Source: Streptomyces pactum (GTDB lineage Bacteria; Actinomycetota; Actinomycetes; Streptomycetales; Streptomycetaceae). From it: DNA of 64,000 nt. Positions 40,647 to 64,000 of the stretch are shown here, in pieces (position 1 is the stretch's first letter; every line of letters starts with the position of its first letter). The notes beneath the pieces are model-generated. The model did no database searches. It was not told the origin of the DNA and worked only from the letters and a program-made list of their open reading frames with translations. The stretch spans positions 3,722,501-3,786,500 of the forward strand of contig NZ_CP019724.1 of the NCBI RefSeq assembly GCF_002005225.1, read 5' to 3'. The translations under genes were made by a program, and so were the position numbers.

Positions 40647-41306
40647 GTGGCCCGCAGCGCCCTCACGATCACCGCCGCCACCTTCACCGCGACAGCGGCC
40701 CTGCTGCTGACCGCCTGCGGCGGAGGCGGCGACGACTCGGCGCCGGACGACATCGAGGGGGCGGGGGCGGGGGCGAGCAGTTCCGCTCCGTCGGCTTCGG
40801 CGTCCTCATCGACGCCGCCCGGCGTCGAGCGGCCGGTGATCAAGCTTCCCGGTAGCTTCCAACTGACCTTCGAAGACTGGACGAGCAGCGATGCTCAACA
40901 ACAGGCCGTGCTCAACGACGCCAAGGAAGAACTCCGGGCAGGGTACGCCGCGATCATCGCCAACGACCCCGACAGCGCAGCCGTTGCCTTCTACGACACC
41001 GATTCCGGCCGCTCCCAGAGCAAGAAGTGGATCAAGTCGTACACGGACAAGAACGTGACGGTGATCGGCAAGCTCCCGGTCTTCGACCCCAGGGTCACCG
41101 TGCTCGACGGCGGCACGACGGCGTCTCTCGGTTACTGCACGGACGAGAGTGAGGCCTACACCAAGCACCGGAAGACCGGCAAGGTCGAAGGGAATCCCGC
41201 GGACATGGATCCCGAGGTGTATTACCTGGTCACGCTCAGGAAAAGCAGCCAAGGCGTGTGGCAGAACGCTTCCGTCCGCTCGGAGAGGGGCGAGTGCGCG
41301 AAGTGA
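40647..41306 (+). CDS. Lipoprotein A, copy 1 (paralogue of 54707 and 60735)
   Basis: A 219-residue lipoprotein: residues 1-24 are a signal peptide with lipobox LLLTAC, then a Ser/Ala/Asp linker. The mature domain shares with its two paralogues a WxxxDxxxxAVLxDA-type helix, AVAFYDTDSGRSQSKKWIKS (others: FYYKG...W), and a C-terminal Cys pair (YCTDESEAYTKHRKTGKV and RGECAK). The size and pattern suggest a small NTF2/cystatin-like fold, but this is a guess. The last 13 nt overlap the secreted protein B gene, as in the other copies. Confidence 0.88.
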   Translation: MARSALTITAATFTATAALLLTACGGGGDDSAPDDIEGAGAGASSSAPSASASSSTPPGVERPVIKLPGSFQLTFEDWTSSDAQQQAVLNDAKEELRAGYAAIIANDPDSAAVAFYDTDSGRSQSKKWIKSYTDKNVTVIGKLPVFDPRVTVLDGGTTASLGYCTDESEAYTKHRKTGKVEGNPADMDPEVYYLVTLRKSSQGVWQNASVRSERGECAK

Positions 41307-44710: not shown

Positions 44711-45631
44711 TCACACCTGAAACACCCGCATCGCCGCCGGATAGATCAGGAACACCAGGAACCCGGCGCACAGCAGGAGCTGGGCCACGAGCATCGACTG
44801 GGACTTCTCACCCGCGCTGCCCTCGATCTCGGCGAGTTCGCGGTGCCGCATGGTCTCGGCGCGGGAGGAAAGGGACTCGCGGACCTTGGCGCCGTCGTCC
44901 GCGACCAGGGCGAGCGAGGCGGAGAGGTCCTTGAGTTCTTCGACGCCGAGGTCCTCACCGAGCTGCCCCAGCGCCTGCCACTGGCTGATGCCCGTGATGC
45001 GCGCGTCGGACAGGGCGTTGCGGATGCGGTGGGTCGCCCAGCCGTCCGACACCTCCGCCGCCGCCATCAGGGCCTCGGGCAGCCCGCGACCGCCGGCCAG
45101 GCTCATGGACACCAGGTCCAGGTACGCGCCGATCACGCGTCGCAGGTCACGGCGCTTTTCGGCCGCGTCCCGGCGTACCTCCAGGTCGGGGAGGAAGAAG
45201 AAGAGCGCCGCGCAGAGCAGGGCCAGCCAGACCGGGATGATCGGGCTGTCGCCGAAGCCCAGCGTCCAGACGATGGCGAACAGGAACGGACCGAAGAACA
45301 GGCCGCCCACGCCCAGCAGCGCCTTCGTCGCCAGGAACTTCTCCCAACTGCGGTCCAGCACCGCCAGATCCGCGCGCAGCGAGCGCAGCTCCCAGCCCTG
45401 CTGCATGTACAGCTCGGCGACACGTGCGCCGACCTGGGCGCGCAGCGAGCCGATGCGGCCGGTGTCCTTCGCCACGCGGGCCGACTCGTACGCGGCCCCG
45501 CGTGCCCGCATCGCGTCGATCCGCGCGACCTGCTGGACCGGGCTCTGCCTGCTCGGCATCAGGGCGCGGACCAGGGCGTAGACGCCCAGGCCGATGACGG
45601 CGCCGACCAGTACCGGCATTGTCAGGTTCAT
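44711..45631 (-). CDS. tadC: Tad pilus inner-membrane platform protein TadC
   Basis: A 306-residue T2SSF-domain protein with four hydrophobic segments (about 5-22, 90-115, 120-145, 280-305) and the domain region AYLDLVSMSLAGGRGLPEAL. It pairs with TadB as the platform for the TadA motor. ATG 45631 overlaps tadB by 4 nt. Confidence 0.9.
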   Translation of the reverse strand: MNLTMPVLVGAVIGLGVYALVRALMPSRQSPVQQVARIDAMRARGAAYESARVAKDTGRIGSLRAQVGARVAELYMQQGWELRSLRADLAVLDRSWEKFLATKALLGVGGLFFGPFLFAIVWTLGFGDSPIIPVWLALLCAALFFFLPDLEVRRDAAEKRRDLRRVIGAYLDLVSMSLAGGRGLPEALMAAAEVSDGWATHRIRNALSDARITGISQWQALGQLGEDLGVEELKDLSASLALVADDGAKVRESLSSRAETMRHRELAEIEGSAGEKSQSMLVAQLLLCAGFLVFLIYPAAMRVFQV

Positions 45632-46716
45632 CGTCGTACCCCCTCGTCACCAGACGCCGGCGACGGCTGTGACGGTTGCGGCAGCCGCTGCACGGGCTGA
45701 CCCGCCTGACCCGCCTGACCCGGCTGGCCCTGCTGACCCGGTGTGCGGGGGCGCACGAACTGGATGTCGGAGCCGTCCCGGACCAGGAAGCGGTCGGGCG
45801 TCTCGATGGTCGACAGCTTGCGCATCCACCAGAAGCCCAGCGCGAACAGGCCGCACACGCAGGCCAGGACGAGCTGGCCGACGGGCGAGCCGTACGGTTC
45901 GACGAAGTCCCGGTTGAAGATGGACAGGCCGAGGACGAAGAGGACCGAGACCGCCACGACGATCTGGACCGAGCGGCGGGTCGAGGCGCGCTGCGCCATG
46001 ACGCGCTGGCGCATGTCGACCTCCTCGCGCGCCGACTTGGCGAGCGCGCCGAGGACCTGGCGCAGACCCGGGCCGCGCAGTCGCGCGTTGAGGATGAGCG
46101 CCGCGACGATGATGTCGGCGGACGCGTCGTCGATCTCGTCGGCGAGGTGCTGGAGCGCGTCGGGCAGCGGCGTGCGGGAGCGCAGCCGGTCGACCAGGGC
46201 GTCCAGGTGCGGGCGCAGGACCGGGGCGGCGGCGCGGGCCGAGGCCGGGATGGCCTGCTCCAGGCCGACCGCGCCCGCGATGGTGTCGCGCAGCGACTCC
46301 GTCCAGGAGGCGAGGGCCTCCACCCGCTTCATGGCGGCGCGCTCCTCGGCGGCGCCGCCGAAGAGGCGGTCCCAGAAGAAGACGAGGATGCCGGCCGCGA
46401 TGCCCAGCACCGCCCAGCGGGTGAGGAGCAGGACGACGAGGCCGACGATGGCCGCGAGGGAGCCGCGCCGGCCCGCCCAGCGGATCAGTTCGCTTGCCCG
46501 CTCGCTGGCCTGGCGCTTCTCGTGCTCGGGCTTGGCGGGCAGTCCGCGTACGGCGACCAGGAAGAGGGCGAGTCCGCCGCCGACGGCGACGCCGCAGCCG
46601 AGCGCGTACAGGACCGTGGTGGAGAAGAGGCCGCCCATGGAGCCGAGGGAGTCCAGCGCCGCGAGGGGCACGGCGGCGGCGTGCGTGGTGGTGTCCGACA
46701 TGTTCGTCATGTCCAT
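45628..46716 (-). CDS. tadB: Tad pilus inner-membrane platform protein TadB
   Basis: A 362-residue T2SSF-domain protein (ASWTESLRDTIAGAVGLEQA ... LADEIDDASADIIVAALILN) with membrane helices near 30-55, 90-120, 255-275 and 285-305 and a Gln/Gly/Pro-rich C-terminus. The start is uncertain: GTG 46725, ATG 46716 (overlapping the tadA stop as TGATG) and nearby ATGs are all possible. Confidence 0.9.
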   Translation of the reverse strand: MDMTNMSDTTTHAAAVPLAALDSLGSMGGLFSTTVLYALGCGVAVGGGLALFLVAVRGLPAKPEHEKRQASERASELIRWAGRRGSLAAIVGLVVLLLTRWAVLGIAAGILVFFWDRLFGGAAEERAAMKRVEALASWTESLRDTIAGAVGLEQAIPASARAAAPVLRPHLDALVDRLRSRTPLPDALQHLADEIDDASADIIVAALILNARLRGPGLRQVLGALAKSAREEVDMRQRVMAQRASTRRSVQIVVAVSVLFVLGLSIFNRDFVEPYGSPVGQLVLACVCGLFALGFWWMRKLSTIETPDRFLVRDGSDIQFVRPRTPGQQGQPGQAGQAGQPVQRLPQPSQPSPASGDEGVRR

Positions 46717-48023
46717 CACCCCCACGTTCCGTTGGGCCGGTAGCCGTAGGCGATGAGTTCCTCCAGGCAGGCTATGGGGGCGTGCGGTACGACCCGGCCG
46801 TCGGGCGCTTCGGCGAAGACCTCGCTGGACAGCACGCGTCCGTCGACGCCGTTGACCTCACGGACCGAGGTGACCACGCGCTGGAGGCGACCGCCGCTCT
46901 GGAAGTTGTTGCGCCGCTGGATGAAGACGACGAAGTTGACGGCGCCGGCGACCAGCATCTGGCTGGCCTCGATCGGCAGCCGTTCCGTGGCCTGGAGGGC
47001 GTACGTCGAGATGCGGTTGAAGACCTCGTGCGAGCTGTTGGCGTGGATCGTGGACAGCGAGCCGTCGTTGCCCTGCGACATCGCGTTCAGCATGGTCACG
47101 ATCTCGTCGCCGAGCACCTCACCGACGATGACGCGGGAGGGGTTCATACGGAGGGAACGGCGGACGAGTTCCGCCATGCTGATCGTGCCCTGGCCCTCGG
47201 AGTTGGGCAGCCGCTCCTCGAACGCCACCACGTTGGGGTGGAGGTCGGGGAAGGTGTCGAGGCCGAGCTCCAGGGCCCGCTCCACCGTGATCAGCCGCTC
47301 GTGCGGGGGGATCTCGTTGGCGAGCGCGCGCAGCAGCGTCGTCTTGCCGGCGTTCGTCGCGCCGGCGATCATGATGTTCTTGCGGGCGCGCACCGCGCAG
47401 GCCAGGAAGTGGCCGAGCTCGGGGGCGAGGGTGCCGTTGCCGACCAGGTCGGAGATGAAGACCTTGCCCATGCGCGCTCGGCGGATGGACAGCGCCGGGC
47501 GCCGGGCGACGTCCATGACCGCCGACAGACGCGAACCGTCCGGCAGCCTGAGGTCGAGCTGCGGGTTGGCGGAGTCGAAGGGGCGGGAGGACAGACCCGA
47601 GTAGGCGCCGAGGATCTGGATCAGCTCGATGAGCTCCTCGTCGGTCTCGGCGACCGGTTCGCCGCGCTCCTCGCGCCCGTCGGAGTAGCCGACGAAGACG
47701 TGGTCGCAGCCGTTGATGTCGATGTTCTCGACCTCGGGGTCGTCGAGGAGCGGCTGGAGCCGCCCGACGCCGAACAGCGCGGCGTGCACCGCGGCGGCGT
47801 ACTGCTCCTCCGTCTCCGCGTCCAGCGGCGTACGCCCGGCGTTGATCTCGGCGCGGGCGTACTCCTCCAGGATCTGCGCGATGACGGCGCGCGCGTACTG
47901 CCGCTCGTCCTCGTTGGACATCGGCGTGACGCCGCTGACCTGGTCCTGGCGGCGCTGCTCGGAGATGCGGTCGCCGGCGTCCTGCCGGAACCGCTTGACC
48001 AACGAGTGGTCGACAGCGGTCAT
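46716..48023 (-). CDS. tadA: Tad pilus assembly ATPase TadA (CpaF family)
   Basis: A 435-residue secretion ATPase. Walker A is GATNAGKTTLL; the Asp and His boxes follow (ITVERALELGLD; SQGNDGSLSTIHAN). It powers pilin assembly at the membrane. ATG 48023 overlaps the tadZ-like stop by 4 nt; the upstream open frame is not family sequence. Confidence 0.94.
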   Translation of the reverse strand: MTAVDHSLVKRFRQDAGDRISEQRRQDQVSGVTPMSNEDERQYARAVIAQILEEYARAEINAGRTPLDAETEEQYAAAVHAALFGVGRLQPLLDDPEVENIDINGCDHVFVGYSDGREERGEPVAETDEELIELIQILGAYSGLSSRPFDSANPQLDLRLPDGSRLSAVMDVARRPALSIRRARMGKVFISDLVGNGTLAPELGHFLACAVRARKNIMIAGATNAGKTTLLRALANEIPPHERLITVERALELGLDTFPDLHPNVVAFEERLPNSEGQGTISMAELVRRSLRMNPSRVIVGEVLGDEIVTMLNAMSQGNDGSLSTIHANSSHEVFNRISTYALQATERLPIEASQMLVAGAVNFVVFIQRRNNFQSGGRLQRVVTSVREVNGVDGRVLSSEVFAEAPDGRVVPHAPIACLEELIAYGYRPNGTWG

Positions 48024-48877
48024 CGGCCGGCCCCCGCGTGGCCGGTCAGGTCGGCGCCGGCGGGTCCGGTGGGCATGGACCAGGCGGCGCCGAACTGCTG
48101 GTACAGGTCCGAGGTGACCTTGCGGGCGGAGCGGATGAGCAGCGACTTGTCCAGCCGCCCGCGCTTGCGTCCGGCCAACTGGTCGGCGCCGGCCGGGTCG
48201 TCGGCGATCGTGCCGACCACGCGGGCGCCGGTCTGGGCGTGCACGAGCATGTCGTTGACCTGCCCGGAGAGCTTCGCGGCGTTGTTCGTGTCGGCGACCA
48301 GGACGACGCCGATCATCGGCATGCCGAGGCTCGCGGCGCCGCGCGGGCCGCCGTGCAGCTTGGCGGACAGAGCGGCGGCACGGTCGCGCACGCGGGCGAT
48401 GGCCTCCGGCTCGGTGCGGGAGACCAGCAGCACCAGGGCGGCGTGCGGGAAGAGCTCCGCGGCCGGGGTGTCCCCGCTGACGCGGCCGCAGTCGGCGATG
48501 ACGTCGGCGGGCGCGTTCGGGGACTCGGCGAGCGAGGCGAAGGCCCGGCCCAGGGTGGGCCACAGGCCCGTGAGGCCGGCGGCCTGCTCGGAGCTGCCGA
48601 GTCCCACGAGGACTTCGAGGCCGCCGCTGAGCGGCTGCACGTGGTCCCAGAGCTGGTCGGGCACGAGGCCGCGCCGCGCGGTGGCGGCGATCGACAGCAT
48701 GCCGGTGTTGGGGTTGAGCGGGCCGCCGTGCGCTGCGGCGGACCGGTACACCAGGTCGCCGCCCGCCGGATCGGTCTCGGCGAGCAGGACGCGGCGCGGC
48801 CAGACCGCCGCGAGGGCGACGGCCGCGGTGGTGACGCCGGGGGAACCCTTGTCGGCGGCGAGGGCGATGAGGGCCAT
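48020..48877 (-). CDS. TadZ-like ParA/MinD-family protein with degenerate P-loop
   Basis: A 285-residue protein of the MinD/ParA fold. The N-terminal loop reads AADKGSPGVTT instead of KGGxGKT(T), so the second glycines and the essential Lys are altered, while ETDPAGGDL (Walker A') and ADCGRVSGD remain. In tad loci such proteins localise the pilus machine at a pole or site. Located between cpaB-like and tadA genes. Confidence 0.85.
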   Translation of the reverse strand: MALIALAADKGSPGVTTAAVALAAVWPRRVLLAETDPAGGDLVYRSAAAHGGPLNPNTGMLSIAATARRGLVPDQLWDHVQPLSGGLEVLVGLGSSEQAAGLTGLWPTLGRAFASLAESPNAPADVIADCGRVSGDTPAAELFPHAALVLLVSRTEPEAIARVRDRAAALSAKLHGGPRGAASLGMPMIGVVLVADTNNAAKLSGQVNDMLVHAQTGARVVGTIADDPAGADQLAGRKRGRLDKSLLIRSARKVTSDLYQQFGAAWSMPTGPAGADLTGHAGAGR

Positions 48878-53459: not shown

Positions 53460-53753
53460 CTACGCCTCGGCGTCGTCGTCCGCCACCTGGCCGGCTTCCG
53501 GCGGGTACGCGACGAAGGTGCCCTTGGCGGGGAGGGTGACGACGAGGCCGCGTTCGCGGAGTTCGCGGACAGCGCGACGAGCGGTGAGGTAGGCGACCTC
53601 ATACTCCTGGCCGAGGTCTCGTTCGCCCGGCAACCGCGCTCCGGGCCTCAGCTCACCCGACGCGATACGGGCAGCGATGTGGTCGGCCACCTGCATATAG
53701 ACGTACGCGATCTTGTTGGGGTCGATCGGCGAGTCGCCCGTGTCTGCTGCCAT
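53460..53753 (-). CDS. Short GntR-family transcriptional regulator
   Basis: A 97-residue protein consisting mostly of the winged helix: VYMQVADHIAARIASGELRP, GARLPGERDLGQEYEVAYLT and ARRAVRELRERGLVVTLPAK. No effector domain. Repeated TTGCTGC motifs lie directly upstream, probably its own operator. Confidence 0.88.
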   Translation of the reverse strand: MAADTGDSPIDPNKIAYVYMQVADHIAARIASGELRPGARLPGERDLGQEYEVAYLTARRAVRELRERGLVVTLPAKGTFVAYPPEAGQVADDDAEA

Positions 53754-53781
53754 ACCAGTCACCGTAAAACAGCTCTGAGCT

Positions 53782-53834
53782 GCAGCAATAGGCGCATTGC
53801 TGCGTACTGCTATGCACTGACATGCGCAGCAATG
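53782..53834. promoter_or_regulatory. Inverted-repeat operator candidate between the GntR gene and 53912
   Basis: CATTGCTGCG (53795-53804) and CGCAGCAATG (53825-53834) are perfect 10-bp inverted repeats with centres 30 bp apart. A third copy of GCAGCAAT is at 53782-53789. All lie in the divergent promoter region. Confidence 0.65.
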
Positions 53835-53911
53835 TACGCTGATCGCAGAAGACCCCGGCGACGGAGGCAAGCCGTCCCGGGGCATGGCCGACGCTGCAAA
53901 GGAGCGCCAAC

Positions 53912-54208
53912 ATGCTGGACCTTACCGCCCGCCTCCTCGCCTGGATGCTGAGCATCTGCACACCCAACCCCCGGGGCCGTCACCGCCTCGGCACCGCGCC
54001 GCCCCTGCGTTTCATCCCGGCACCCCCGCCCCGCTTCACCGAGATCCTCGACGGCAACGCGTCCCGCCTCGTACGCCCCTACGTCCTGGACCCCGCCGAA
54101 CGCCGCCACCAACGCGAACGCCGCCGCGCCGCACACCCGGCCACCCTCGGCGTCGACGTCGGCCCGAGGCACATCCACGGCGTACGGGTCCCGGCGGCAA
54201 CCCGATGA
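53912..54208 (+). CDS. Small basic hypothetical protein
   Basis: A 98-residue protein rich in Arg and Pro, with no known domain. AAAGGAG precedes the start. It overlaps the next gene by ATGA, so both are co-translated, and is divergent from the GntR gene, which may control it. Confidence 0.7.
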   Translation: MLDLTARLLAWMLSICTPNPRGRHRLGTAPPLRFIPAPPPRFTEILDGNASRLVRPYVLDPAERRHQRERRRAAHPATLGVDVGPRHIHGVRVPAATR

Positions 54209-54483
54209 CCGGGCGGCCTCCCCTGCGGATGTGCGCCCGCTGCCGGCGCACCACCGACGAACCGGTCCTGGTCCACGAGGTCCACGCCGCCACGGGCCCC
54301 GGCTTCAACGTCTACGCGTGCCCTGAGTGCGCGGAGCACTACCCGCCCATGACCGACGTGCTGGAACTACTGGACTCCGCCGCCCGCCGTCGCGCCCACA
54401 CCGGCGGGCCGCTCACCGAACCGATCCCCTGCTCGTCGACGAACCCGCCGTGCGCGTGCCCGAGGTGCACAGCACGGCTATAG
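54205..54483 (+). CDS. Small Cys-rich (zinc-ribbon-like) protein, copy 2 module leader
   Basis: A 92-residue protein with CARC, CPEC and a C-terminal CACPRC, which suggests one or two zinc sites. The start overlaps 53912's stop. A near-identical but truncated copy lies at 60247. It precedes lipoprotein A2 by 223 bp; that stretch is also duplicated and contains a small TTCGC-TCTG-GCGAA inverted repeat. Confidence 0.75.
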   Translation: MTGRPPLRMCARCRRTTDEPVLVHEVHAATGPGFNVYACPECAEHYPPMTDVLELLDSAARRRAHTGGPLTEPIPCSSTNPPCACPRCTARL

Positions 54484-54706
54484 AGAAGGCCCCCCAGCGG
54501 CTCCGGACGCAACACTCCCCAGCGTGCCCGGGGCCGCTTCCAGCCCGTCGCCCGCTGGGACACGATCAGGACACAGCACATTGCGGGAATGCCAGCGAAC
54601 GCCCGAAATGCCCAAGCTGTTGGGACAGTTCGCTCTGGCGAAACCAGCAACCCCACCGCTAGCGTCTGTGCTCTTGACTGCACCTTTGTCCCACGGGGAG
54701 TCCACT

Positions 54707-55363
54707 GTGAAGCGCCGCTCTTTGCCCGTTGCCGCCGCGCTCGCCGCGGCAGCGGTACTACTGCTGACGGCCTGTGGCAGTTCGGATGACGCCTCGAAGG
54801 CCAACGACGAGATCGCCGGGGCCGACGCTGGAAGCGAACAAGAGTCGGCTACGCCGGCCACGCGCCCCAGCGACACGGCTCAGCATCCGAAGGTGACATT
54901 GCCGAAGGACGTCGCGAACGTCTTCGAGGGCTGGAAGACCGGAGACGCCACGAAGGACGCGGTCCTGGCCGACACATCGCGCCGCGTCGATGCGCTGACC
55001 TACGCCATCACCCAGGCGGAGCCGGACGAGCCCGCGCTCGGCTTCTACTACAAGGGGGACGCCCTGCTGGGCGCTGCTGACTGGGTCCAGGAGTTCGTAA
55101 AAGCCAAGAAGTCGATGACGGGCGAGACCCGCTACTTCAAGCCGACCGTCGACGTGTACGCCGACGGCAAGGCGACGCTGACGTACTGCTCCTTCGAAGG
55201 CAAGGCGTTCGTCAAGGACCGGAAGACCGGTGAGGCGGAGAAGACCCCGGTCACCGATGACTCTTACCTCCTCTACTCCACCCGCATGGAGAAGAACGAG
55301 AAGGGCGTGTGGCAGACCGCCGTGCTGAACTCCGAGAGGGGTAACGACACATGCGCACCGTAA
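54707..55363 (+). CDS. Lipoprotein A, copy 2
   Basis: A 218-residue lipoprotein with signal peptide VKRRSLPVAAALAAAAVLLL and lipobox LLLTAC (Cys 23). The mature part matches copies 1 and 3: LPKDVANVFEGWKTGDATKD, ALGFYYKGDALLGAADWVQE, TLTYCSFEGKAFVKDRKTGE and a final RGNDTCAP. GTG 54707 follows GGGGAG by 7 nt; its first 50 bases and the leader are nearly identical to copy 3. It overlaps the B gene by 13 nt. Confidence 0.9.
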   Translation: MKRRSLPVAAALAAAAVLLLTACGSSDDASKANDEIAGADAGSEQESATPATRPSDTAQHPKVTLPKDVANVFEGWKTGDATKDAVLADTSRRVDALTYAITQAEPDEPALGFYYKGDALLGAADWVQEFVKAKKSMTGETRYFKPTVDVYADGKATLTYCSFEGKAFVKDRKTGEAEKTPVTDDSYLLYSTRMEKNEKGVWQTAVLNSERGNDTCAP

Positions 55364-56403
55364 CTCCTGCCCGCCGCTGGCTCCCTGCCGCTGGCCTCGC
55401 CATCGCATGCACCACCCTCATCGTCCCGCCCGTGTATGCCGACGTGAGTCTTGGCGATGGCAATGAAGGCGCCCAGGTAGAACAGGAAGGCTCAAACAGC
55501 GGTAAGACGTTGGAGTCGCGGATCACGTTCCGCGGTTCCACCAACGGTGGTAGCAGCTCCGACTCGGGAAGCCTGGCTCCCGTCGGAAACTGGACACCAC
55601 CTGCCTGCTGGTATGAACCACGGTCCGCCCAGGAGTTCGCTGAGTACATAGAAAACATGTACAAAACTACCGTCAATACCCCTGGTCAGCACAGCTACGC
55701 CAAGACAAGTGCGGGCAAGACTCGGGAAAAATACAAAGACGGTAAGTACAAGAACTACAACCTTGACCAGAAGGACGAGGGCAACTGGTGGGTTGCCGTC
55801 CGAGACGAGGACCGTTGGATGGAACCGGAGGCTCAAGTTTGCGACGAGGACCCCTTCTGGGCGGAGAACGGCGCCGCTCCGCCGGTTGAAAACGCGGTCA
55901 CTCCGGAGGTACTCGCCGAATTGGCCTACAACCGCATTCAACTGCCGACCACCGAAGTCGACCTCGCCCCTGCCGAGGCCACCAAGGTCAACCTCCCCAC
56001 CTGGGCCTGGCTCGACAAGGCAAAGTTCGACAAGGTGTCGGTCACAGCGTCACTTGACGCGGGCGCTGTGAACATCCAGGCCACCACCACCGCGACGCCG
56101 GTGTCCCTGAAGTTGGAGCCGGGCACCGAAGACGCGGAAACCTACCCGGCTTCCGGCGAATGCGCGATCAACGATGGCGGCTCGATCGGCGAGCCTTACT
56201 CCCAGGGCAAGGCCGACCAGACCCCACCCTGCGGCATCAAGTACCTCCGTTCCTCTGGAGACGGCTCCTTCGAACTCCAGGCGACAGTCACTTGGGAAAT
56301 CGCCTGGACCGGCACGGGCGGCGCGGGAGGCGACCTACCCGACGGCACCTTCGGCAACGACCAGGCGGTCATCGTCCAGGAGATCCAGTCCGTCAACCGC
56401 TAA
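55351..56403 (+). CDS. Secreted protein B, copy 2
   Basis: A 350-residue exported protein with a signal peptide ending at PPVYA. Shared motifs are WTPPACWYEP, TKVNLPTWAWLDKAKF, LKLEPGTEDAETYPASGEC and TPPCGIKYLRSSGDG, with a common C-terminal VIVQEIQSVNR. Residues 90-170 are the most divergent among copies. Likely acts outside the cell together with lipoprotein A. Confidence 0.9.
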   Translation: MRTVTPARRWLPAAGLAIACTTLIVPPVYADVSLGDGNEGAQVEQEGSNSGKTLESRITFRGSTNGGSSSDSGSLAPVGNWTPPACWYEPRSAQEFAEYIENMYKTTVNTPGQHSYAKTSAGKTREKYKDGKYKNYNLDQKDEGNWWVAVRDEDRWMEPEAQVCDEDPFWAENGAAPPVENAVTPEVLAELAYNRIQLPTTEVDLAPAEATKVNLPTWAWLDKAKFDKVSVTASLDAGAVNIQATTTATPVSLKLEPGTEDAETYPASGECAINDGGSIGEPYSQGKADQTPPCGIKYLRSSGDGSFELQATVTWEIAWTGTGGAGGDLPDGTFGNDQAVIVQEIQSVNR

Positions 56404-56518
56404 ACAGTAGACCACCATCCTTGTGACGTCCAGAAGATTCAGGCTGTCAAACGCTGACATCGCACACCACCCCAGCACTACCACCCTCGTTACGTCCACA
56501 GGAGACCAGTAAGCGATC

Positions 56519-56824
56519 ATGGCAGGCGACTCAGATCTCATTGTCAATGTCGATATCCTCGTTGAATCGGACACCAACCTGCGCAAGATCAAGAAGGTAC
56601 TTCAGGACATCAACGACAGGAAAGACGACATGCGCCCCCACTGGGGCAGCGGCGAGATCAGCGACGCCATGGGTGACTTCGTCGACAACTGGGATGACTA
56701 CCGCACGCGGATGATCGAGAGCCTCGAAAGCGTCGGGAAGCTCGTTACCAATACCATCGACGGGTTCACCGGCGCCGACGCCGCGCTCGCGAAGGAACTG
56801 AAGAAGGCGAGGAAGGGCAAGTGA
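56519..56824 (+). CDS. WXG100-sized helical protein C, copy 2
   Basis: A 101-residue, all-helical-looking protein: first helix around residues 18-35, a turn with HWGSGEI near 42, and a second long helix (FVDNWDDYRTRMIESLESVG). The size, W-x-G turn and position before a T7SS-signal-like protein fit type VII secretion partners. It overlaps the D gene by GTGA. AGGAGACC lies about 14 nt upstream of the start. Confidence 0.8.
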   Translation: MAGDSDLIVNVDILVESDTNLRKIKKVLQDINDRKDDMRPHWGSGEISDAMGDFVDNWDDYRTRMIESLESVGKLVTNTIDGFTGADAALAKELKKARKGK

Positions 56825-58155
56825 GCGCCTCCTCAAAGCCTCGCCCTCGGGACTGGCACCCGCTCGCGGAAACTGATCCGGTGCCAGGGGATCCAGCAGA
56901 AATCCGCGACGAAGTAACACACATGAAGAATGTGGCATCCTCACTAAGGGACCAGGCAGGCCGACTTCGTGACATTAAGGATGACGACGAGCTCAAAGGA
57001 AAGTATGCGGGAAAGTTGCGCGACGAGTCCGAGGTGCTGGAGAAGCACCTCAGGGAAGTCGCCAGTCGCTACGAGCGCGTCCACGTCCACCTGACCAATT
57101 GGGCCAACGAACTGGAAGAATTCCAGGGTACGGCCGACAAGGTCTTGACCAATGCGAAGAAGGAACAGGAAGAAGTAGAAGCCGAGAAGAGCAAGAAGGA
57201 TGCTCGCGGTGACGACTCTTCCAAGCGCGCGGATAGCGATCCAGAGGATCCACTGCAGAAATACCGCAATCAGCTCAACGGAATCACAGGTGACCGGGAC
57301 AGCCGAGCGGGACACTATGCAAAACAGATCCGCGACGAGATTTCCGATATCATCGAGGACAGCTTTTGGGATGACTTCAAAGGCTTGATTCATGACAACA
57401 TCGACAAAATAAAATGGGTACTCGATGCCCTTGGGTGGGTAGCTTCCGCATTGGGCACGTTGGCACCCTTCCTCGTATGGATCCCAATCATTGGTCCTGC
57501 TCTCGGAGCTATTGCCCTTGGGCTGTCCATCTTTATCGCAGCATCCCGACTGATTCTGTTCTTCGCGGGCGAAGCCAGCATGACAGAGGTGCTGATGGAT
57601 TGCGTCGGCTTGGTAGCCTTCGCCGCCGGAGCAAAAATGTTGACCAAACTGAAGACGGCCAACCAAGCAGTCAAGTCTGCGTCGAAGGTGCAGCGGAAGG
57701 ATCGACTCAAGGGACTATTGAGAACGAACCGAGCCACACGCGACGAGCTCACACGTCGTATAGCGACGGCTGCAGACGACAACGCGAGAGAAGCCGCGCG
57801 GGGGCACCTTAATCGACTTCGTAAAGACATGTCGCGGCACGCCGGCCGCGTAGCCGACGAAGCGCCAGTCCGCCCCACCGCACTCGAAAATCTAGGGTTC
57901 GGGAGTCCTGACGCCCGCGCAATCGTCACGAACATCCGTCAGAACACCTCGACGTTCTCCGACGCAGCCGCAGCCGCCGGGAAGTCCGACACGTACTACA
58001 GGGTCGCCGTGGGGAGTGCGGTGGTCGGTGCCACCGCAGATGTGACAGACAAGACCCTCGGCGAGAGTCCTGTTTTTCCAACCAAGCCTTATAACCAGTC
58101 GTACGAGGACTTCAAGGGAGAAACCGGTAAGTTGCCAGAGGACACTCACTGGTGA
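56821..58155 (+). CDS. Putative type VII-secreted protein D, copy 2
   Basis: A 444-residue protein. Residues 6-30 (RDWHPLAETDPVPGDPAEIR) resemble the putative T7SS signal domain of streptomycete secreted proteins. A coiled coil follows (about 35-130), then a polar region, hydrophobic segments near 205-275 (LAPFLVWIPIIGPALGAIAL), and a C-terminal domain (about 280-444) with no recognised toxin motif. From about 57200 the DNA is much more A/T-rich than the chromosome backbone (22 G/C in 57361-57420). Effector or toxin function is inferred from architecture only. Confidence 0.8.
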   Translation: MSASSKPRPRDWHPLAETDPVPGDPAEIRDEVTHMKNVASSLRDQAGRLRDIKDDDELKGKYAGKLRDESEVLEKHLREVASRYERVHVHLTNWANELEEFQGTADKVLTNAKKEQEEVEAEKSKKDARGDDSSKRADSDPEDPLQKYRNQLNGITGDRDSRAGHYAKQIRDEISDIIEDSFWDDFKGLIHDNIDKIKWVLDALGWVASALGTLAPFLVWIPIIGPALGAIALGLSIFIAASRLILFFAGEASMTEVLMDCVGLVAFAAGAKMLTKLKTANQAVKSASKVQRKDRLKGLLRTNRATRDELTRRIATAADDNAREAARGHLNRLRKDMSRHAGRVADEAPVRPTALENLGFGSPDARAIVTNIRQNTSTFSDAAAAAGKSDTYYRVAVGSAVVGATADVTDKTLGESPVFPTKPYNQSYEDFKGETGKLPEDTHW

Positions 58156-58183
58156 TGTAGTGCTCAATCAGAGAAGAGACGCC

Positions 58184-58564
58184 ATGAATTTTACCCAGCA
58201 AAGTCGAGAGGTCGGACGTCTCGGCGAGGGGCCTACTGCTCTGGCCAGGTTGTGTCTTATCACGGGTACGAGCTCAATCTTTCTAGTCATGGCAGCCTCG
58301 GTCATGCCCGATTCCGCCAGAGACACCGTCTATTTGATTCAACGGTCGATCGTGGCCGCAGCAATTCTCACATTGCTCTGCATCTTCTACAGGCATCCTC
58401 GCCCCACCCGGCGTCCATCTGGCCTCACAGAAGTCTTCATTTACTCACCGGCGCTTTTTCTGGCCGCTTGGGTAACGGGCATATGGCCCGGAGTCTTCAT
58501 TGCACCGCTGATTCCGCTACTTACTTTCGGTGCATGGCTCACAGAGAGGCTCAGGCGTGACTGA
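58184..58564 (+). CDS. Small membrane protein E, copy 2
   Basis: A 126-residue protein with four hydrophobic segments (ALARLCLITGTSSIFLVMAA and three more). It corresponds in position to 63319 in copy 3 but shows little sequence similarity. In polymorphic effector loci this slot often holds immunity proteins; not demonstrable here. GTG 58160 is an alternative start. Confidence 0.7.
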   Translation: MNFTQQSREVGRLGEGPTALARLCLITGTSSIFLVMAASVMPDSARDTVYLIQRSIVAAAILTLLCIFYRHPRPTRRPSGLTEVFIYSPALFLAAWVTGIWPGVFIAPLIPLLTFGAWLTERLRRD

Positions 58565-59201
58565 ACAGAGTCGAACAGTGCCGCAAATGCCCGTTGGGTT
58601 CAATCTCGTCCTACCACCTGGTTGGGACAAAATCAGGCTGCAGGAAGAGTTCTTGGACGACTCGATCCTGGCTGTGGTAGACCGCTCCATCAGGCAACTC
58701 CCCGACGACCTAGCGAAAGATGACATAAGCAAGGTTCGAATGGAGCTCTTCAAACAGCTCAGGAAGGCTGCCAGAAAGGCTGCGCGCGCAAATGGTTTGA
58801 TACTCTACCTGCCCACGGAACGCGTTCACGATACTGTCATTCCAGCATCTTTCGTCGTCACTGAACCGACTCCTGTGACAGGTGACGTCGGGAGTGGAAT
58901 TCAAACAGACCACATCTTCGCAGCTCTGGCGGCAGATAACAGCACTAGCGAGGCAGTCGAAGTCGACGGCTCGTCAGGCATACGAATGGAAAGGGTCGTT
59001 CATCCTCAGGAAGGTTCGGAGATTCCCTTCTCGTCCCGACGAGTTGAGTATGTGTTGTCTGTCCCCGGAAGGCCGCTTCCTCGATGGCTGGCGATCACCT
59101 TCAGTACAGTTGGCGACGGAAAGCCCGACAGCGATTACTCGTCAGCCCTGGTTGAACTTTTCGATGCCGTGATGATGACATTCCGCTGGAGCTACGAGTG
59201 A
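58557..59201 (+). CDS. Module protein F, copy 2 (unknown, T7SS-locus associated)
   Basis: A 214-residue soluble protein. The N-terminal pattern GFNLVLPPGWDKIRL ... FKQLRKAARKAARANGLILY is shared with copy 3 (GYRLLIPSQWAQIPL ... LARRFRKAVAGAQEHDGLDL), so the two are homologues. GTG 58557 follows GAGAGG and overlaps E by 8 nt. No catalytic motif seen; could be a chaperone or adaptor for the C/D proteins. Confidence 0.75.
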   Translation: MTEQSRTVPQMPVGFNLVLPPGWDKIRLQEEFLDDSILAVVDRSIRQLPDDLAKDDISKVRMELFKQLRKAARKAARANGLILYLPTERVHDTVIPASFVVTEPTPVTGDVGSGIQTDHIFAALAADNSTSEAVEVDGSSGIRMERVVHPQEGSEIPFSSRRVEYVLSVPGRPLPRWLAITFSTVGDGKPDSDYSSALVELFDAVMMTFRWSYE

Positions 59202-59791
59202 TTTTCTTCGAGACTGAGGCAGACCCCACCGAGTGGTTCCTGATGCCGCTCCACTGGACGGAGCAGCAGCGGACGGAAATCGACGAGTGGGCCGCCAGGT
59301 GTGCGGACATCGTTTATCAACGCCACCGGAAATGGTGGCGCAACCCCAACCGCGCTGTACTGACTGATCGCTTCCGGCAGTTGATCGAAGCTCACCCGCA
59401 CCCCCGGATCCCGGCACACCAAGTGTTCCTGTATGGAGGTGATCCTCGTAGAGTCCCGCAACCTTTCTATGCTCTCCTGATGCAGGGAGAGGGTGCGGGC
59501 CGAGAGTCCGACCTCAGGACACTCGTCCAGGCGACCGAAGAGGGGTCGGTTCGCCCCCCGGATGTCACCGCATTCGACTCGGACCGGATCGGTGAAGGCC
59601 TGCGCTGTCTACGCTACTTCAGCGATGACGCCGGCCTTGGTGTCTCGCTGAACTACGGTTGGTGGTCGGAGGAGCTTCAGATCTACGCATCCGTGCGCAC
59701 AGTGACGGATGAACTCGGCTGGCTGGGTCTCAACATGGACATCTTCGATGACTTCGCCCGCAGTATCTGGCTCAATCCCAACCCGGAGTGA
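59198..59791 (+). CDS. Module protein G (unknown)
   Basis: A 197-residue soluble protein, Trp-rich and acidic (FLMPLHWTEQQRTEIDEWAA). The GTG start overlaps F by 4 nt (GTGA). Last gene of copy 2; the matching position of copy 3 is outside the window. Confidence 0.75.
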   Translation: MIFFETEADPTEWFLMPLHWTEQQRTEIDEWAARCADIVYQRHRKWWRNPNRAVLTDRFRQLIEAHPHPRIPAHQVFLYGGDPRRVPQPFYALLMQGEGAGRESDLRTLVQATEEGSVRPPDVTAFDSDRIGEGLRCLRYFSDDAGLGVSLNYGWWSEELQIYASVRTVTDELGWLGLNMDIFDDFARSIWLNPNPE

Positions 59792-59920
59792 GTGACGTAC
59801 TGACAACCGGCTGCGCCGCGGATTGCATCAACCCACCTCATCCTGCCAGCCACCGGTGCGGCAGGACGCGCGCTCGCCGCTCGCCCCGCCGCACCGTCAC
59901 TCGCCCAACTCGCGCCGGCG

Positions 59921-60174
59921 CTACGAGCCCCGCGGCTGCTTCGCCAATTCCTCGTCGATCTGCGCGACCTTCCGCCGCAGCCGGGCGAGCTCCTCGGCCT
60001 CGCTCTCACCCCAGCCGTTGCCAGCCCGCTTGGCACGCGACACCCAGCTCGCCAGCGTCGTCTCGTTGATCTCCAAGTCTCGCGCGACCTCGGGGAGCGG
60101 CTTCCCGGTCTCCGCCACGATCCGTACAGCCCCTCGCGAAACTCAGTCGTGAACACCCGACGCTTCTCCGCCAT
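59921..60174 (-). pseudogene. IS3-type transposase OrfA remnant
   Basis: Starts MAEKRRVFTTEFREG, then shifts frame to MAETGKPLPEVARDLEINET and TLASWVSRAKRAG with a leucine-zipper-like end (EELARLRRKVAQIDEELAKQ). This is the helix-turn-helix OrfA of IS3-family elements; OrfB (DDE domain) and clear terminal repeats are absent. It sits exactly between module copies 2 and 3. The flanks 59792-59920 and 60175-60230 show only a weak hairpin at 59841-59866. Confidence 0.8.
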
Positions 60175-60230
60175 GACTCTCAACTTCCCGAGCAGTCACG
60201 GACCCCACACTACGAGGGAAGGCTCACCCG

Positions 60231-60790
60231 ACGGCCTCCCCTGCGGATGTGCGCCCGCTGCCGGCACACCACCGACGAACCGATCCTGGTCCACGAGGTA
60301 CACGCCGCCACGGGCCCCGGCTCCAACGTCTATGCGTGCCCTGAGTGCGCCGAGCACTACCCGCCCATGACCGACGTGCTGGAACTACTGGAATCCGCCG
60401 CCCGCCGTCGCATCCGGACCGACGGGCCACCCACCGAACCGATTCCCTGCCCGCCGACGAACCCGCCCTGCACGTGCCCGAGGTGCACAGCACGGCGATG
60501 GAGAAGGACAACCCTCCTCCCACGACGGCCCCGGACGCAGCACTCCCCAACGCGCCCGGGGCCGCTGTCGGCCCGTCACCCGCTGGAACACGATCAGGAC
60601 ACAGCACAGCGCAGAAATGAGAACGTACGCCCGACATGTCCAAGCTGCTCGGACAGTTCGCTCTGGCGAAATCAGCAACCCCACCGCTAGCGTCTGTGCT
60701 CTTGACTGAACCTTTGTCCCACGGGGAGTCCACTGTGAAGCGCCGCTCTTTGCCCGTTGTCGCGACGGCAGCACTGCTCTTGACGGCCTG
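60231..60790 (+). repeat. Duplicate of 54211-54760 (leader of the module)
   Basis: Near-identical DNA covers the Cys-rich gene, the non-coding leader and the start of lipoprotein A. The copies split abruptly on the left at GGCCTCCCCTGCGG. Confidence 0.9.
60247..60690 (+). pseudogene. Truncated copy of the small Cys-rich protein, copy 3 leader
   Basis: From 60231 the sequence closely follows 54211 onward, so CARC, CPEC and CPRC are kept. The native start (ATGACCGGG in copy 2) is lost at the junction, leaving only an internal ATG at 60247. The copy 2 stop TAG reads TGG here, so the frame runs on for about 65 more residues into the leader. Confidence 0.6.
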
Positions 60791-61379
60791 CGGCAGCGGG
60801 GAGGGAGAGTCCAGCGACACAGACAAGATCGCCGGAGCAGACACAGGCGAATCGTCGGCATCGGCGCCTGCCTCACCGAGCGCATCGGCCGACGTCAGCC
60901 GCCCTGATCTCTCCTTGCCTGATGACGTGAAGGAAGTCTTCGAGGACTGGGAGACCGGCGACGCCACCAAGGACGCCGTGCTCGCCGACGCGGGACACTC
61001 GATGACCGCGGTTACCCGGGCCATCACGGACGGAGAGACCGAGTCACCTGCTCTCAGCTTCTACTACAAGGGCGAGGCACTGGCGGGAGCTGCGAAGTGG
61101 GTACAGACCTTCGTGGACCACGATGCGACGATCACCGGCACCACGCGCTACTACGCGCCAACCGTGGACCTGTCCGGCAAAGCCACGGCAGCGGTCACAC
61201 TCTGCGCGGACGAGAGCAAGGCATTCAACAAGTTCCGGAAGACGAACAAGGTCGACCGCAGCGCCCCCTCCGACAACTCCTACGTGTACTACGTCAGCCG
61301 TCTTGAGCAGAACTCCAAGGGGATCTGGGTCACAAGTAAGGTCATTTCCAAGCGGGGGAACGAGAAATGTATTCCGTAA
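60735..61379 (+). CDS. Lipoprotein A, copy 3
   Basis: A 214-residue lipoprotein, lipobox LLLTAC (Cys 19), Ser/Ala/Asp linker, then LPDDVKEVFEDWETGDATKD, ALSFYYKGEALAGAAKWVQT, TLCADESKAFNKFRKTNKV and a final RGNEKCIP. GTG 60735 follows GGGGAG. It overlaps B by 13 nt. Confidence 0.9.
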   Translation: MKRRSLPVVATAALLLTACGSGEGESSDTDKIAGADTGESSASAPASPSASADVSRPDLSLPDDVKEVFEDWETGDATKDAVLADAGHSMTAVTRAITDGETESPALSFYYKGEALAGAAKWVQTFVDHDATITGTTRYYAPTVDLSGKATAAVTLCADESKAFNKFRKTNKVDRSAPSDNSYVYYVSRLEQNSKGIWVTSKVISKRGNEKCIP

Positions 61380-62404
61380 AGTCGCCCAGAAGGCTGGCGC
61401 TGCCCGGAGCCGTGCTGTTCGCCAGCGCCGCCTTGCTCCCCATGGGGCCGGCGCACGCGGAGACCGGCTTCGGCGGATCTCGGGGGGAGGCCGACACCAG
61501 CAGCGGTTCAAGCGGGCGGGACATCACTTCGCAGGTCACCTTCAACACCTCCAGGAACGGGACCGGCGAGTCGACCGGTGCTCTGACCGCTGTCGGCGAC
61601 TACGACCCGCCTGCCTGTTGGTACGAGCCGAAGTGGACGCCCGAGGAGTACGAGAAGGACTTCGAGCAGCGCTGGAACGTCGGACACTTCAGCGGTGCGG
61701 CGCAGGGCTACGCCGCCGAGAAGTCCCGCTACATCGAAGGCAAGCCCTACAAGGACTTCAACAAGGAAAAGTCCGGCGAAGGCATGTTCTGGGGGACGGT
61801 CTACGACTGGGAGCGTCTTGAGGGGGATGACTACCTGGCGTGCAGCCAAGCCGACTTCTGGGTCGACAACGGCGACGATCCGCCTGTTGAGGGTGCCCTC
61901 GACAGCGAGACTCTGGCGATGCTCGCGTACAACCGGCTCCAGGTCCCCGACACCGAGGTCACTCTCGCACCCGCAGAGGCCACAAAGGTCAACCTTCCCA
62001 CCTGGGCCTGGCTGGACAAGGCCGACTTCCACGAGGTATCCGTCACCGCGTCTCTCAACGTGGGCGGTTGGAACCTCTCTGCCACCACGACGGCCAAGCC
62101 CGTCTCGCTGAAACTGGAACCGGGAACCGCGGACGCCACCATGTTCCCCGCCTCCGGCGAGTGCACCATCAGCGCCGAGGGAACAGTCGGTGAGCCCTAC
62201 GCCAAGGGCAAGTCCGACGAGACCCCGCCCTGCGGTGTCACATACCTCCGGTCCTCCGGTGAAGGCACCTACGACCTCAAGGCAACCGTCACTTGGGAAA
62301 TCGCGTGGGAGAGCTCCACCGGCGAGACCGGAACGCTCCCCGACGGCACCTTCGGCAACGATCAGGCGGTGACAGTGCAGGAGATCCAGGCGGTAAATAG
62401 GTAA
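61367..62404 (+). CDS. Secreted protein B, copy 3
   Basis: A 345-residue exported protein, signal peptide ending GPAHA, with YDPPACWYEP, TKVNLPTWAWLDKADF, LKLEPGTADATMFPASGEC, TPPCGVTYLRSSGEG and a C-terminal VTVQEIQAVNR. Closest to copy 2. Confidence 0.9.
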   Translation: MYSVKSPRRLALPGAVLFASAALLPMGPAHAETGFGGSRGEADTSSGSSGRDITSQVTFNTSRNGTGESTGALTAVGDYDPPACWYEPKWTPEEYEKDFEQRWNVGHFSGAAQGYAAEKSRYIEGKPYKDFNKEKSGEGMFWGTVYDWERLEGDDYLACSQADFWVDNGDDPPVEGALDSETLAMLAYNRLQVPDTEVTLAPAEATKVNLPTWAWLDKADFHEVSVTASLNVGGWNLSATTTAKPVSLKLEPGTADATMFPASGECTISAEGTVGEPYAKGKSDETPPCGVTYLRSSGEGTYDLKATVTWEIAWESSTGETGTLPDGTFGNDQAVTVQEIQAVNR

Positions 62405-62535
62405 CAGTCTTTCTCCGCCCCTCGAGCCACATCACCGCTCTCGGTGCCGCTAGATTGCGGAGAATCCTTGACCATAGGGCACGCTCTTGACGAACGGAAT
62501 TTCGATTCCGGCCATCACAGACTGGACTGATCCGC

Positions 62536-62823
62536 ATGTCGGACTTGACTGTCGACTTCGACCTCCTGAAAACCTCCGCGAAGCAGCTCAACGCGATTCG
62601 CACCGAGTTCAAGGATCTCGGTGAGTGGAAAGACGACATCACCTCGGTTGTGGGCGCTTCCGAGCTCCGGAGCGCCATGACGGACTTTATCGACAACTGG
62701 GACGACAACCGCAAGCGCTTGGTCGAGTCGTTGGAGGAAGTCGGAAAGATGGTCGAAGGGACGCGCGATGCGTTCAAGAGCCTTGACGACGAGTTGGCCA
62801 AGACCGGCAAAAAGAACAAGTAG
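62536..62823 (+). CDS. WXG100-sized helical protein C, copy 3
   Basis: A 95-residue helical protein homologous to 56519: LRSAMTDFIDNWDDNRKRLV matches ISDAMGDFVDNWDDYRTRMI. The Trp-x-Gly turn of copy 2 is replaced (TSVVGASEL). It lies 131 bp after B and before the D gene. Confidence 0.8.
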   Translation: MSDLTVDFDLLKTSAKQLNAIRTEFKDLGEWKDDITSVVGASELRSAMTDFIDNWDDNRKRLVESLEEVGKMVEGTRDAFKSLDDELAKTGKKNK

Positions 62824-62865
62824 CCATGCCGATTGACGTACCGTACTGCTGACTCAGGGGAATTG

Positions 62866-63305
62866 ATGGCGAGGCCCAAAGACTGGCACCCGCTGCGCGA
62901 GAGCGATCCGGTGCCCGGTGATCCGAGCGGTGTCCGAGACCAAGTCACGCATATGAAGAAGATTGCCGAATACTTGCGGACTCAGGCGAAGTCACTCACC
63001 GCGATGGCGGACGCCGACAATCTTAAGGGCAAATACGCCGAGAAGTTGGCTGAGGACGCTCGCGGACTGGGACGCAAACTCGACTTGGCGGAAGACCGGT
63101 ACCGAAGTGGCGCGACGCCTATCCCGACAACCCCACACTGGCGTCCAACGCCAGCCAGGCCCAGCGCCACAAGGACGCGATTCAGGGTTCCTGGGCTGCT
63201 TCCACAGGGCTCGACGCTGCGGACAAGAGCGCGGATTCCCTCACGAACGACGGATACAGCAGGATGAAGGACCGGATGACCGCGCCCGTCGGCTCGCAAT
63301 GGTGA
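62866..63305 (+). pseudogene. Protein D, copy 3, short and frameshifted
   Basis: The N-terminus KDWHPLRESDPVPGDPSGVR and the following coil match copy 2, so it has the same T7SS-signal-like domain. Near 63105 the frame breaks; one base added there restores WRDAYPDNPTLASNASQAQR and a natural end at APVGSQW. The corrected product is about 146 residues and lacks the hydrophobic and C-terminal parts of copy 2. A sequencing error cannot be excluded. Confidence 0.7.
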
Positions 63306-63318
63306 GGGAGACTCTCCG

Positions 63319-63729
63319 ATGACCGAAACCCGCGACTCAGGGGGGACCAGCCGCACGGTTGCCTGGCTGCAGTACGGCGTCGCAGGCGTGAAGATCGTCT
63401 TCTTGCTAAGCGTCTTCCGTCTCCTGGCCACACCCTTCTCCGAGGAGATGTTCGGAGAGCAGTGGCTGCCGATGCCCACATGGGAATGGGCCCTGGCTTC
63501 CGTGACTCCTGTCTTGCTCATCGTGCTGGCACGTCGACCGGCCGACCGGGCCGCGCTCTCCGGCGAGCAGACCATCCTACGCATCGCACTCACCTTCTAC
63601 CTCGTCTACGGCCTGGCGTTCGCGGCCGTGCAGGACAAGGTCATTCTGTGGCTATCCGTGGTCGCTGGTATCGGCGGCCTGGTGACGATGTACCTTCTCA
63701 ACCGCAAGGAGCCCCTCCATGGCAGCTGA
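63319..63729 (+). CDS. Small membrane protein E, copy 3
   Basis: A 136-residue protein with four hydrophobic segments (from about residue 15 to 130) in the same slot as 58184. GAGGGAG precedes the start. Sequence differs strongly from copy 2, as expected of a variable partner. Confidence 0.8.
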   Translation: MTETRDSGGTSRTVAWLQYGVAGVKIVFLLSVFRLLATPFSEEMFGEQWLPMPTWEWALASVTPVLLIVLARRPADRAALSGEQTILRIALTFYLVYGLAFAAVQDKVILWLSVVAGIGGLVTMYLLNRKEPLHGS

Positions 63730-64000
63730 GCAGAGGGCGGCTGTGGGCCAGGAAGGCCCAAGGGCCACGGGATACCGCCTCCTCATCCCCTCCCAGTGGG
63801 CACAGATCCCTCTGCGCAGTGGCACGCAGGAAGCAGTTGAGCGGATCTTGCAGGACGCGTACTCACGCATACCCGCAGACGCCCCTTCAGACAAGATCGG
63901 CCCGTACAAGCAGGAGCTCGCCCGGCGGTTCCGCAAGGCCGTGGCCGGGGCTCAGGAACACGATGGCCTCGACCTGTACCTACCGGTCAAACCGGTGAGT
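63719..64000 (+). CDS. Module protein F, copy 3 (partial, runs off the window)
   Basis: The first 94 residues are visible, homologous to 58557 (GYRLLIPSQWAQIPLRSGTQ ... IGPYKQELARRFRKAVAGAQ). It overlaps E by 11 nt. Confidence 0.75.
   Translation, partial: MAAEQRAAVGQEGPRATGYRLLIPSQWAQIPLRSGTQEAVERILQDAYSRIPADAPSDKIGPYKQELARRFRKAVAGAQEHDGLDLYLPVKPVS

Follow-up and report, generated by a model that had tools for sequence, protein, structure and literature searches.

Two gene cassettes adjoin a probable secretion ATPase locus

The 64,000-nt stretch of Streptomyces pactum DNA analysed here (the window; bases 3722501–3786500 of the 8.55-Mb genome) ends in two consecutive copies of a gene module that we regard as candidate effector cassettes of a type VII secretion system (T7SS) variant. 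Copy 1, all on the + strand, begins with an open reading frame (ORF) for a small Cys-rich protein with a match in copy 2 (54205..54483), followed by the lipoprotein-like A1, which matches A2 (54707..55363), and by B1, a protein of secreted type that matches B2 and has relatives in other Streptomyces (55351..56403). C1 (56519..56824) is a WXG100-like partner without the W-x-G letters that lies near the PF06013 cut-off and carries a C-terminal FxxxD, and D1 (56821..58155) is a candidate effector with a T7SS_signal N-terminus (PF21725), a middle part with three hydrophobic segments and a variable C-terminus. Next come E1 (58160..58564), a small membrane protein with three hydrophobic segments whose family context makes it a candidate immunity protein; F1 (58530..59201), a candidate chaperone with a DcrB/Eag fold, judged by its AlphaFold2 model, its fold matches and its companionship with D; and an ORF for the soluble protein G1 (59198..59791). 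The start of F1 is more likely nearer 58560 than at the annotated 58530.

Copy 2, on the same strand and offset by ~6.0 kb according to ORF order and DNA self-comparison, repeats this series with an ORF for the Cys-rich protein, again with its match in copy 1 (60247..60690), A2 (60738..61379), B2 (61367..62404), C2 (62536..62823), a D2 remnant (62866..63302), the open E2 frame for a small hydrophobic protein (63319..63729), F2 (from 63719 to the window edge at 64000 and beyond) and, past the edge, an open G2 frame (64352–65005; genes beyond the edge are given in window numbering, that is, their position in locus L001 plus 53999). The first-pass annotation had described two copies in a row with a G gene in the second; the shared order held, but copy 1 has a G gene too and copy 2 extends past the window. 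Its claim that A, B, C and the N-terminus of D are homologous between copies was upheld, with identities of 51% over 217 aa for A, 52% over 348 aa for B, 47% over 92 aa for C and 55% over 77 aa near the N-terminus only for D, next to 86% over 80 aa for the Cys-rich protein. The accompanying claim that E and the C-terminus of D differ was right for E (no significant match between E1 and E2, E = 0.93), but the difference in D2 is mostly damage. At the DNA level, identity is 92% in the Cys-rich region, 89% in the stretch that follows and 74% over 300 nt in part of B, so that the copies do not stem from one recent simple duplication.

Genes for a WXG100 protein, an ATPase and a kinase start 1.3 kb beyond the window edge at base 64000. 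The core WXG100 gene (65269–65640, − strand; PF06013, 63.8 bits) is followed by the ATPase gene (65722–70425, + strand) and, convergent with the latter, by a Ser/Thr kinase gene (70436–72328, − strand; PF00069, 118.5 bits) whose product has a hydrophobic segment C-terminal of the kinase domain, as expected of the membrane Ser/Thr kinase of the T7SSd type. The ATPase is an FtsK-type protein of 1,567 aa with two FtsK_SpoIIIE stretches in Pfam. Against the EssC model it reaches 567.1 bits, against EccCa 429.5 and against EccCb 324.1, each below that model's own cut-off, and its best sequence matches in the PDB are 4nh0 (361.7 bits), a YukB entry (310.8 bits) and EccC5 (241.9 bits), so that it has the features of a multi-domain ATPase of EccC/EssC type. 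An FHA-like part matches PF16697, which we take to be an FHA-fold family, at 27.2 bits, below the cut-off of 33.2; by eye, its phosphothreonine-binding motif seems incomplete. The N-terminus (L001 ~11864–12140) is a conserved 95-aa part with weak resemblance to YukD/ubiquitin-like domains: YukD matched in 5/14 relatives (best E 0.04), Ufm1 in one (E 0.0098), and a redesigned ubiquitin was found in the PDB at E 1. These matches are suggestive only of a ubiquitin-like N-terminus, and a fused domain of TsxB type would be unusual.

The ATPase, D, F and B occur together across Streptomyces genomes

Co-occurrence was assessed in a tool-drawn sample of 150 Streptomyces genomes. With a 420-aa part of the ATPase as query, 35 genomes had a close match (E < 1e-130) and 63 a match at a looser cut (E < 1e-60). 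D was counted at E < 1e-7 (39 of the 50 genomes with a match at E <= 0.001), F at E <= 0.001 (36 genomes) and B at ~E < 1e-50 (41 of the 61 genomes with a match at E <= 0.001); D matches of E 1e-7 to 1e-3 (11/50 genomes), B matches weaker than ~E 1e-50 (20/61), a few B rows that were fragmentary or contained stops, and 37/97 further B neighbourhoods were set aside. D genes were present in 35/35 genomes with the close ATPase and in 4/115 of the others (G050, which is 82% complete, G101, G116 and G137), a link to genomes with a T7SS-type ATPase that supports the first-pass interpretation. F occurs in 33 and B in 31 of the 35 ATPase genomes, and the looser ATPase cut takes in 40/41 B genomes; Fisher p-values for these co-occurrences ignore kinship among the genomes.

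A survey of loci retrieved through D, B and ATPase matches and of 78 named loci found in a public scan yielded 80 distinct ATPases, 70 of them close to the one described here. Among the 64 close ATPases with at least 8 kb of upstream sequence, a divergent WXG100 gene lies within 1.2 kb in 61, D within 10 kb in 61, F within 10 kb in 60 and B within 12 kb in 48. A convergent kinase gene is found within 3 kb in 20 of the 31 loci with at least 2.5 kb downstream. Because many loci were fetched via D, the genome-level count is the fairer measure.

The C-terminus of D varies together with the next gene

D1 matches T7SS_signal with 29.1 bits (cut-off 27), and no toxin domain was recognised in it by Pfam or family profile searches. 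Our own locus and loci L033–L132 gave 93 distinct D proteins, 86 of them shorter than 1,000 aa. In these 86, residues 1–140 form one cluster, partly by construction, and residues 140–290 one cluster of 85, whereas the residues beyond 300 fall into 15 clusters, 11 with at least two members. By a simple hydropathy scale, the middle part contains two or more hydrophobic segments in 82/86, and 0/86 have any after residue 300. A same-strand gene begins within 400 nt after D in 69/86, and C-terminal cluster and next-gene cluster share a mutual information of 1.86, compared with a maximum of 1.05 in 5,000 shuffles: C-terminal cluster 1 leads to next-gene family c2 in 13/14, cluster 2 to c4 in 8/9 and cluster 6 to c9 in 4/4. 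The pattern of polymorphic effectors that the first-pass annotation had seen in two copies, a conserved delivery part joined to a variable end and a changing partner, is thus borne out by the 86 D proteins. Among nine D proteins of other clusters, T7SS_signal is over cut-off in five, slightly under in two and absent in two; two D proteins cut by a locus end continue, by eye, into Rhs-type repeats. Streptomyces tendae also has the island, with a D of 71% identity. Nothing was found for D among PDB sequences up to E 1. A predicted D fold was of low confidence, with generic helical bundles as top matches and EspB and TelA-LXG lower, and was not used.

E1 has a DUF4118 match of 21.2 bits, below cut-off, and 38/42 distinct members of its family follow an intact D. 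Copies of E type without an adjacent D make up 18/40 of family c2, 7/24 of c4, 3/14 of c8 and 4/42 of c5. In one locus (L114; ORFs L114_86, 93, 100 and 106) four c2 genes without an adjacent D resemble a bank of orphan immunity genes.

C1 scores 24.3 bits with PF06013, slightly under the cut-off of 27.3. The C-terminal motif [FYHW]xxx[DE] is present in 151/157 C proteins (shuffled mean 34.6) and in 42/44 core WXG100 proteins (shuffled mean 15.6), counts that measure conservation only, because the proteins within each set are related; the motif resembles the YxxxD/E of T7SS substrates. The W-x-G letters occur in 2/157 C proteins and 0/44 core proteins.

F is a constant companion of D with a predicted Eag-type fold

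F lies within 4 kb of D for 128/141 D genes, whatever the D C-terminus, and beside D in 6/8 loci outside Streptomyces, a constancy that the first-pass annotation had not noticed; only three long Rhs-type D genes had sufficient flanking sequence, one of them with F beside it. The AlphaFold2 model of F1 (pLDDT 88.6) has the predicted fold of the DcrB/Mog1/PsbP group, with structure matches to DcrB, PsbP, LpqN and the Eag chaperones of type VI secretion systems (T6SS). Sequence identity in these structural alignments is ~8–10%; among 32 F proteins the DcrB family of Pfam gave no match up to E 1 and PsbP a single one (E 0.057), and F had no match below E 0.38 among PDB sequences. G1 belongs to no Pfam or NCBIfam family; homology between F and G (hhalign probability 19.7%, E 0.0012) was not accepted. 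PADLOC found no match to anti-phage defence among eight module proteins.

Copy 2 is decaying

The D2 ORF stops at 63267. In tblastn searches with its relatives L048_98 and L049_60, residues 1–79 align to D2 in one frame at 84–86% identity and the last 75–79 residues in a different frame at 55–57%, with the ~290 central residues of either relative not found between the two pieces. F2, by comparison of frames, is split over two (63767–64252 and 64212–64388), while the frames of A2, B2, C2, E2 and G2 are open. E2 shares 40–47% identity with its counterparts in L048 and L049; of 19 distinct members of its family in the loci examined, 18 follow an intact D and our E2 alone follows a truncated one. 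Copy 2 is thus decaying: D2 has an internal deletion and a broken frame and F2 is split, damage that the first-pass annotation had not seen, whereas E2 is open, as one would expect were F to act for D and E to go on protecting.

Between the copies lies a junction scar (59884..60118, − strand). A remnant of a transposase helix-turn-helix domain (PF01527, 29.0 bits; cut-off 24.1) leads into a duplicate of the 3′ terminus of the WXG100 gene located downstream (an 88-nt repeat of 88% identity, with which tblastn agrees). One cassette copy therefore probably arose by insertion or duplication through recombination beside the WXG100 gene.

Canonical T7SS genes are missing from some of the same genomes

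EccB (PF05108) is found in 135/150 Streptomyces genomes. It had no match in our genome or in any of 14 named control genomes, and 13/15 genomes without a match, ours included, belong to the 35 ATPase genomes, as if one T7SS replaced the other. In a further set of 14 of the 150 genomes (eight without and six with EccB), EccD was found in all six EccB-positive genomes and not in four of the eight EccB-negative ones (G011, G024, G027 and G087); a canonical EccCa over cut-off was likewise present in 6/6 EccB-positive genomes and in none of these four or our own. These four genomes thus hold the island, D included, with no canonical ESX core (EccB, EccD, EccC) found. EssB/YukC (PF10140) matched in 0/14 genomes and in the positive control, Bacillus subtilis.

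In our genome, EccD scores 137.3 bits, an EccC-like gene near 5.54 Mb is interrupted by a stop, and PF06013 matches two proteins only, the one beside the ATPase and C1. The region 5538000–5556000 (L150) is a second T7SS-like locus: besides EccD and the EccC-like gene, which is split in two, it encodes two small helical proteins and one of 718 aa. Our genome may therefore hold a damaged canonical ESX.

Proposed effector cassettes of a T7SS variant and alternative explanations

We interpret the island as a set of effector cassettes belonging to a divergent T7SS variant in Streptomyces, with E as immunity protein and F as chaperone, at a probability of roughly 0.6; linkage, polymorphism, co-variation, the predicted F fold and the decay of copy 2 are observed, and from them we infer export, toxicity and chaperoning. 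The variant would be built on an FHA-like ATPase of EssC/EccC type, a divergent WXG100 protein and often a membrane Ser/Thr kinase, with one effector delivered per C-D-E-F-G cassette. C would be the partner of D at its T7SS_signal end and bear the export signal, and F, because of its DcrB/Eag fold and constant pairing with D, may hold D by its hydrophobic middle until export. Linkage suggests that D is exported by the adjoining ATPase; it would then attack a target cell at its membrane or envelope, by means of the hydrophobic middle and the variable C-terminus. Because E, often a small membrane protein, co-varies with the C-terminus of D, it may protect the producer in a C-terminus-specific manner, and A and B may have an accessory role in the envelope in the Streptomyces version. 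The strongest points for this interpretation are the link with the ATPase, the co-variation of C-terminus and partner, the Eag-fold companion, and the damage to D2 and F2 next to an E2 that is still open.

Several observations weigh against this interpretation. Pairing of D with the next gene is not strict: C-terminal cluster 0 (17 cases) is followed by six next-gene families, of which four encode small hydrophobic proteins, five of its cases lead directly to F or G, and family c3 follows D clusters 4, 5 and 7. Besides the lack of a recognised toxin domain in D1, a named C-terminal domain was found in only one of the nine other D proteins (Stv, PF21527, 77.5 bits, in the D-type protein L062:2158-3744). 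The genus sporulates, and in several loci the ATPase and kinase genes adjoin a housekeeping gene, presumably mqnA. The scarcity of recognised toxin domains, the sporulating genus and this gene neighbourhood would suit a D that is exported by the adjacent ATPase yet is no toxin, serving instead in envelope building or signalling, for example during development, with E as its matched anchor or receptor. We think this rather unlikely, as 15 C-terminal clusters with matched next genes, extra E-type copies, patchy presence (39/150 genomes) and decay of D beside an open E fit conflict genes better. It is also unlikely that F is the immunity or neutralising protein and E a helper in membrane insertion, since F is one family across the C-terminal clusters whereas E changes with them, and F2 is broken alongside D2 while E2 is intact.

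The broken D2 and F2, the transposase remnant with its duplicated WXG100 end and the interrupted EccC-like gene elsewhere could also mean that in our strain the island is a dying or selfish relic, whose copies are brought in by recombination, become damaged and are without function here; this seems quite improbable given that copy 1, the core WXG100 gene, the ATPase and the kinase are open and that the arrangement recurs in many species. The first-pass annotation, noting that the window held no ESX core gene, had made the module depend on a remote system. Taken to the letter this absence is correct, yet it reflects where the window ends, just before the ATPase locus; genes for a WXG100 protein and an FtsK-type ATPase follow at once. 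With ATPase, WXG100 and kinase genes adjoining the module, no remote ESX is needed, and use of a canonical remote ESX by the cassettes, with the adjacent ATPase unrelated, was dropped as a leading explanation. The EccD and interrupted EccC-like genes of our own genome and the wide occurrence of EccB speak for it, but 13 of the 35 ATPase genomes, all of which have D, are without an EccB match, and half of the eight EccB-negative module genomes tested also lack EccD and an over-cut-off canonical EccC; we therefore consider it very improbable.

Comparison with known secretion systems

Garrett et al. (2024; PMC11217815) described T7SSc–T7SSj, of which, in the accessible part of that article, T7SSd alone is from Actinomycetota (hosts Olsenella and Bifidobacterium), with an FHA-ATPase, a WXG100 protein, a kinase, TsdH and the large Ig-like TsdI as parts; a word count of the article gave no ‘Streptomyces’. 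The island resembles T7SSd, as presented there, in combining three parts within an actinomycete (an ATPase with an FHA-like part, a WXG100 protein and a Ser/Thr kinase) and in having candidate substrates next to them, in T7SSd of Rhs or LXG-like kind, that are paired with small WXG100-like proteins. It differs in that the kinase is not constant (20/31 loci), that the ATPase N-terminus is possibly ubiquitin-like, whereas T7SSd has no ubiquitin-like protein in the accessible text, and that A-B and F have no mention there. T7SSb, with its LXG toxins, Lap partners and immunity proteins (PMC9600267), shares, as far as the accessible part of that paper goes, the conserved helical N-terminus, the small WXG100-like partner, the variable C-terminus, the partner gene next to it and extra partner copies, but here EssB/YukC is missing from 14/14 genomes tested, D has a T7SS_signal domain and F a DcrB fold. 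The ATPase sequence is close to that of T7SSa/ESX (4nh0 being the best PDB match); the absence of EccB matches in our genome and 12 others of the 35, the FHA-like N-terminal part and the single divergent WXG100 gene set the island apart. The Eag chaperones EagT6 and SciW, which serve effector transmembrane domains, belong to another secretion type, and F has no DcrB-family sequence match. PsbP/MOG1-like genes adjoin T6SS toxins (Zhang et al., 2012; PMC3482391), and alarmone-synthetase genes, effector-like, adjoin T7SS genes in Streptomyces (PMC12691689), according to the accessible parts of both papers. No description of the island, nor any paper combining T7SS with Eag, was found in the literature searched by title and start of abstract, mostly outside subscription journals and bioRxiv preprints.

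More tentatively, and as a possibility that we hold short of probable, the island may represent a separate T7SS subtype outside T7SSa–T7SSj, in which the ATPase carries fused ubiquitin-like and FHA-like domains, the divergent WXG100 protein lacks W-x-G, EccB and EssB are absent and a membrane kinase is often present. It would be specialised in the export of membrane-inserting polymorphic effectors in need of the Eag-type chaperone F, with A-B providing envelope passage in Streptomyces.

Streptomyces weapons are known chiefly as small molecules, and exchangeable effector cassettes, if our interpretation is correct, would give this genus a protein weapon system. The Eag-type solution familiar from type VI secretion would recur in type VII, and the range of the FHA/kinase-type T7SS would extend to Streptomyces. 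A concrete prediction is an Eag-like chaperone serving a T7SS effector, and the tie between ATPase and cassette in 35/35 genomes opens the substrate range of the ATPase to direct testing.

A and B, and neighbouring genes

A1 has no Pfam family up to E 1 and B1 none; B1 relatives occur in the 61/150 genomes mentioned above. From 40 loci mostly chosen through D, our own loci and 60/97 further B places we collected 94 distinct B proteins, with A within 1.5 kb in 84, a T7SS_signal gene within 6 kb in 59 and not in 35, and C followed by D on the same strand in 25. In 0/8 D loci from outside Streptomyces was A or B found within ~1.5 kb on each side. That A and B are integral to the module, as first proposed, thus agrees with the 59 B genes near a T7SS_signal gene and not with the other 35 or the lone A-B pair of the window. 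A role of A/B as core machinery is weakened by these 35 and by four genomes with the ATPase and D in which B is not listed (G001, G086, G120 and G121). As B follows the ATPase genome-wide (40/41), A/B may act for the system from elsewhere in the genome or just occur in the same clade.

The lone pair is the third A-B pair of the window (40647–42352), without C or D. Genes at 44711–48563, near this pair, are presumably a Tad/Flp pilus cluster. A GntR-type regulator gene (53463–53885, − strand; 59.9 bits) lies directly before copy 1.

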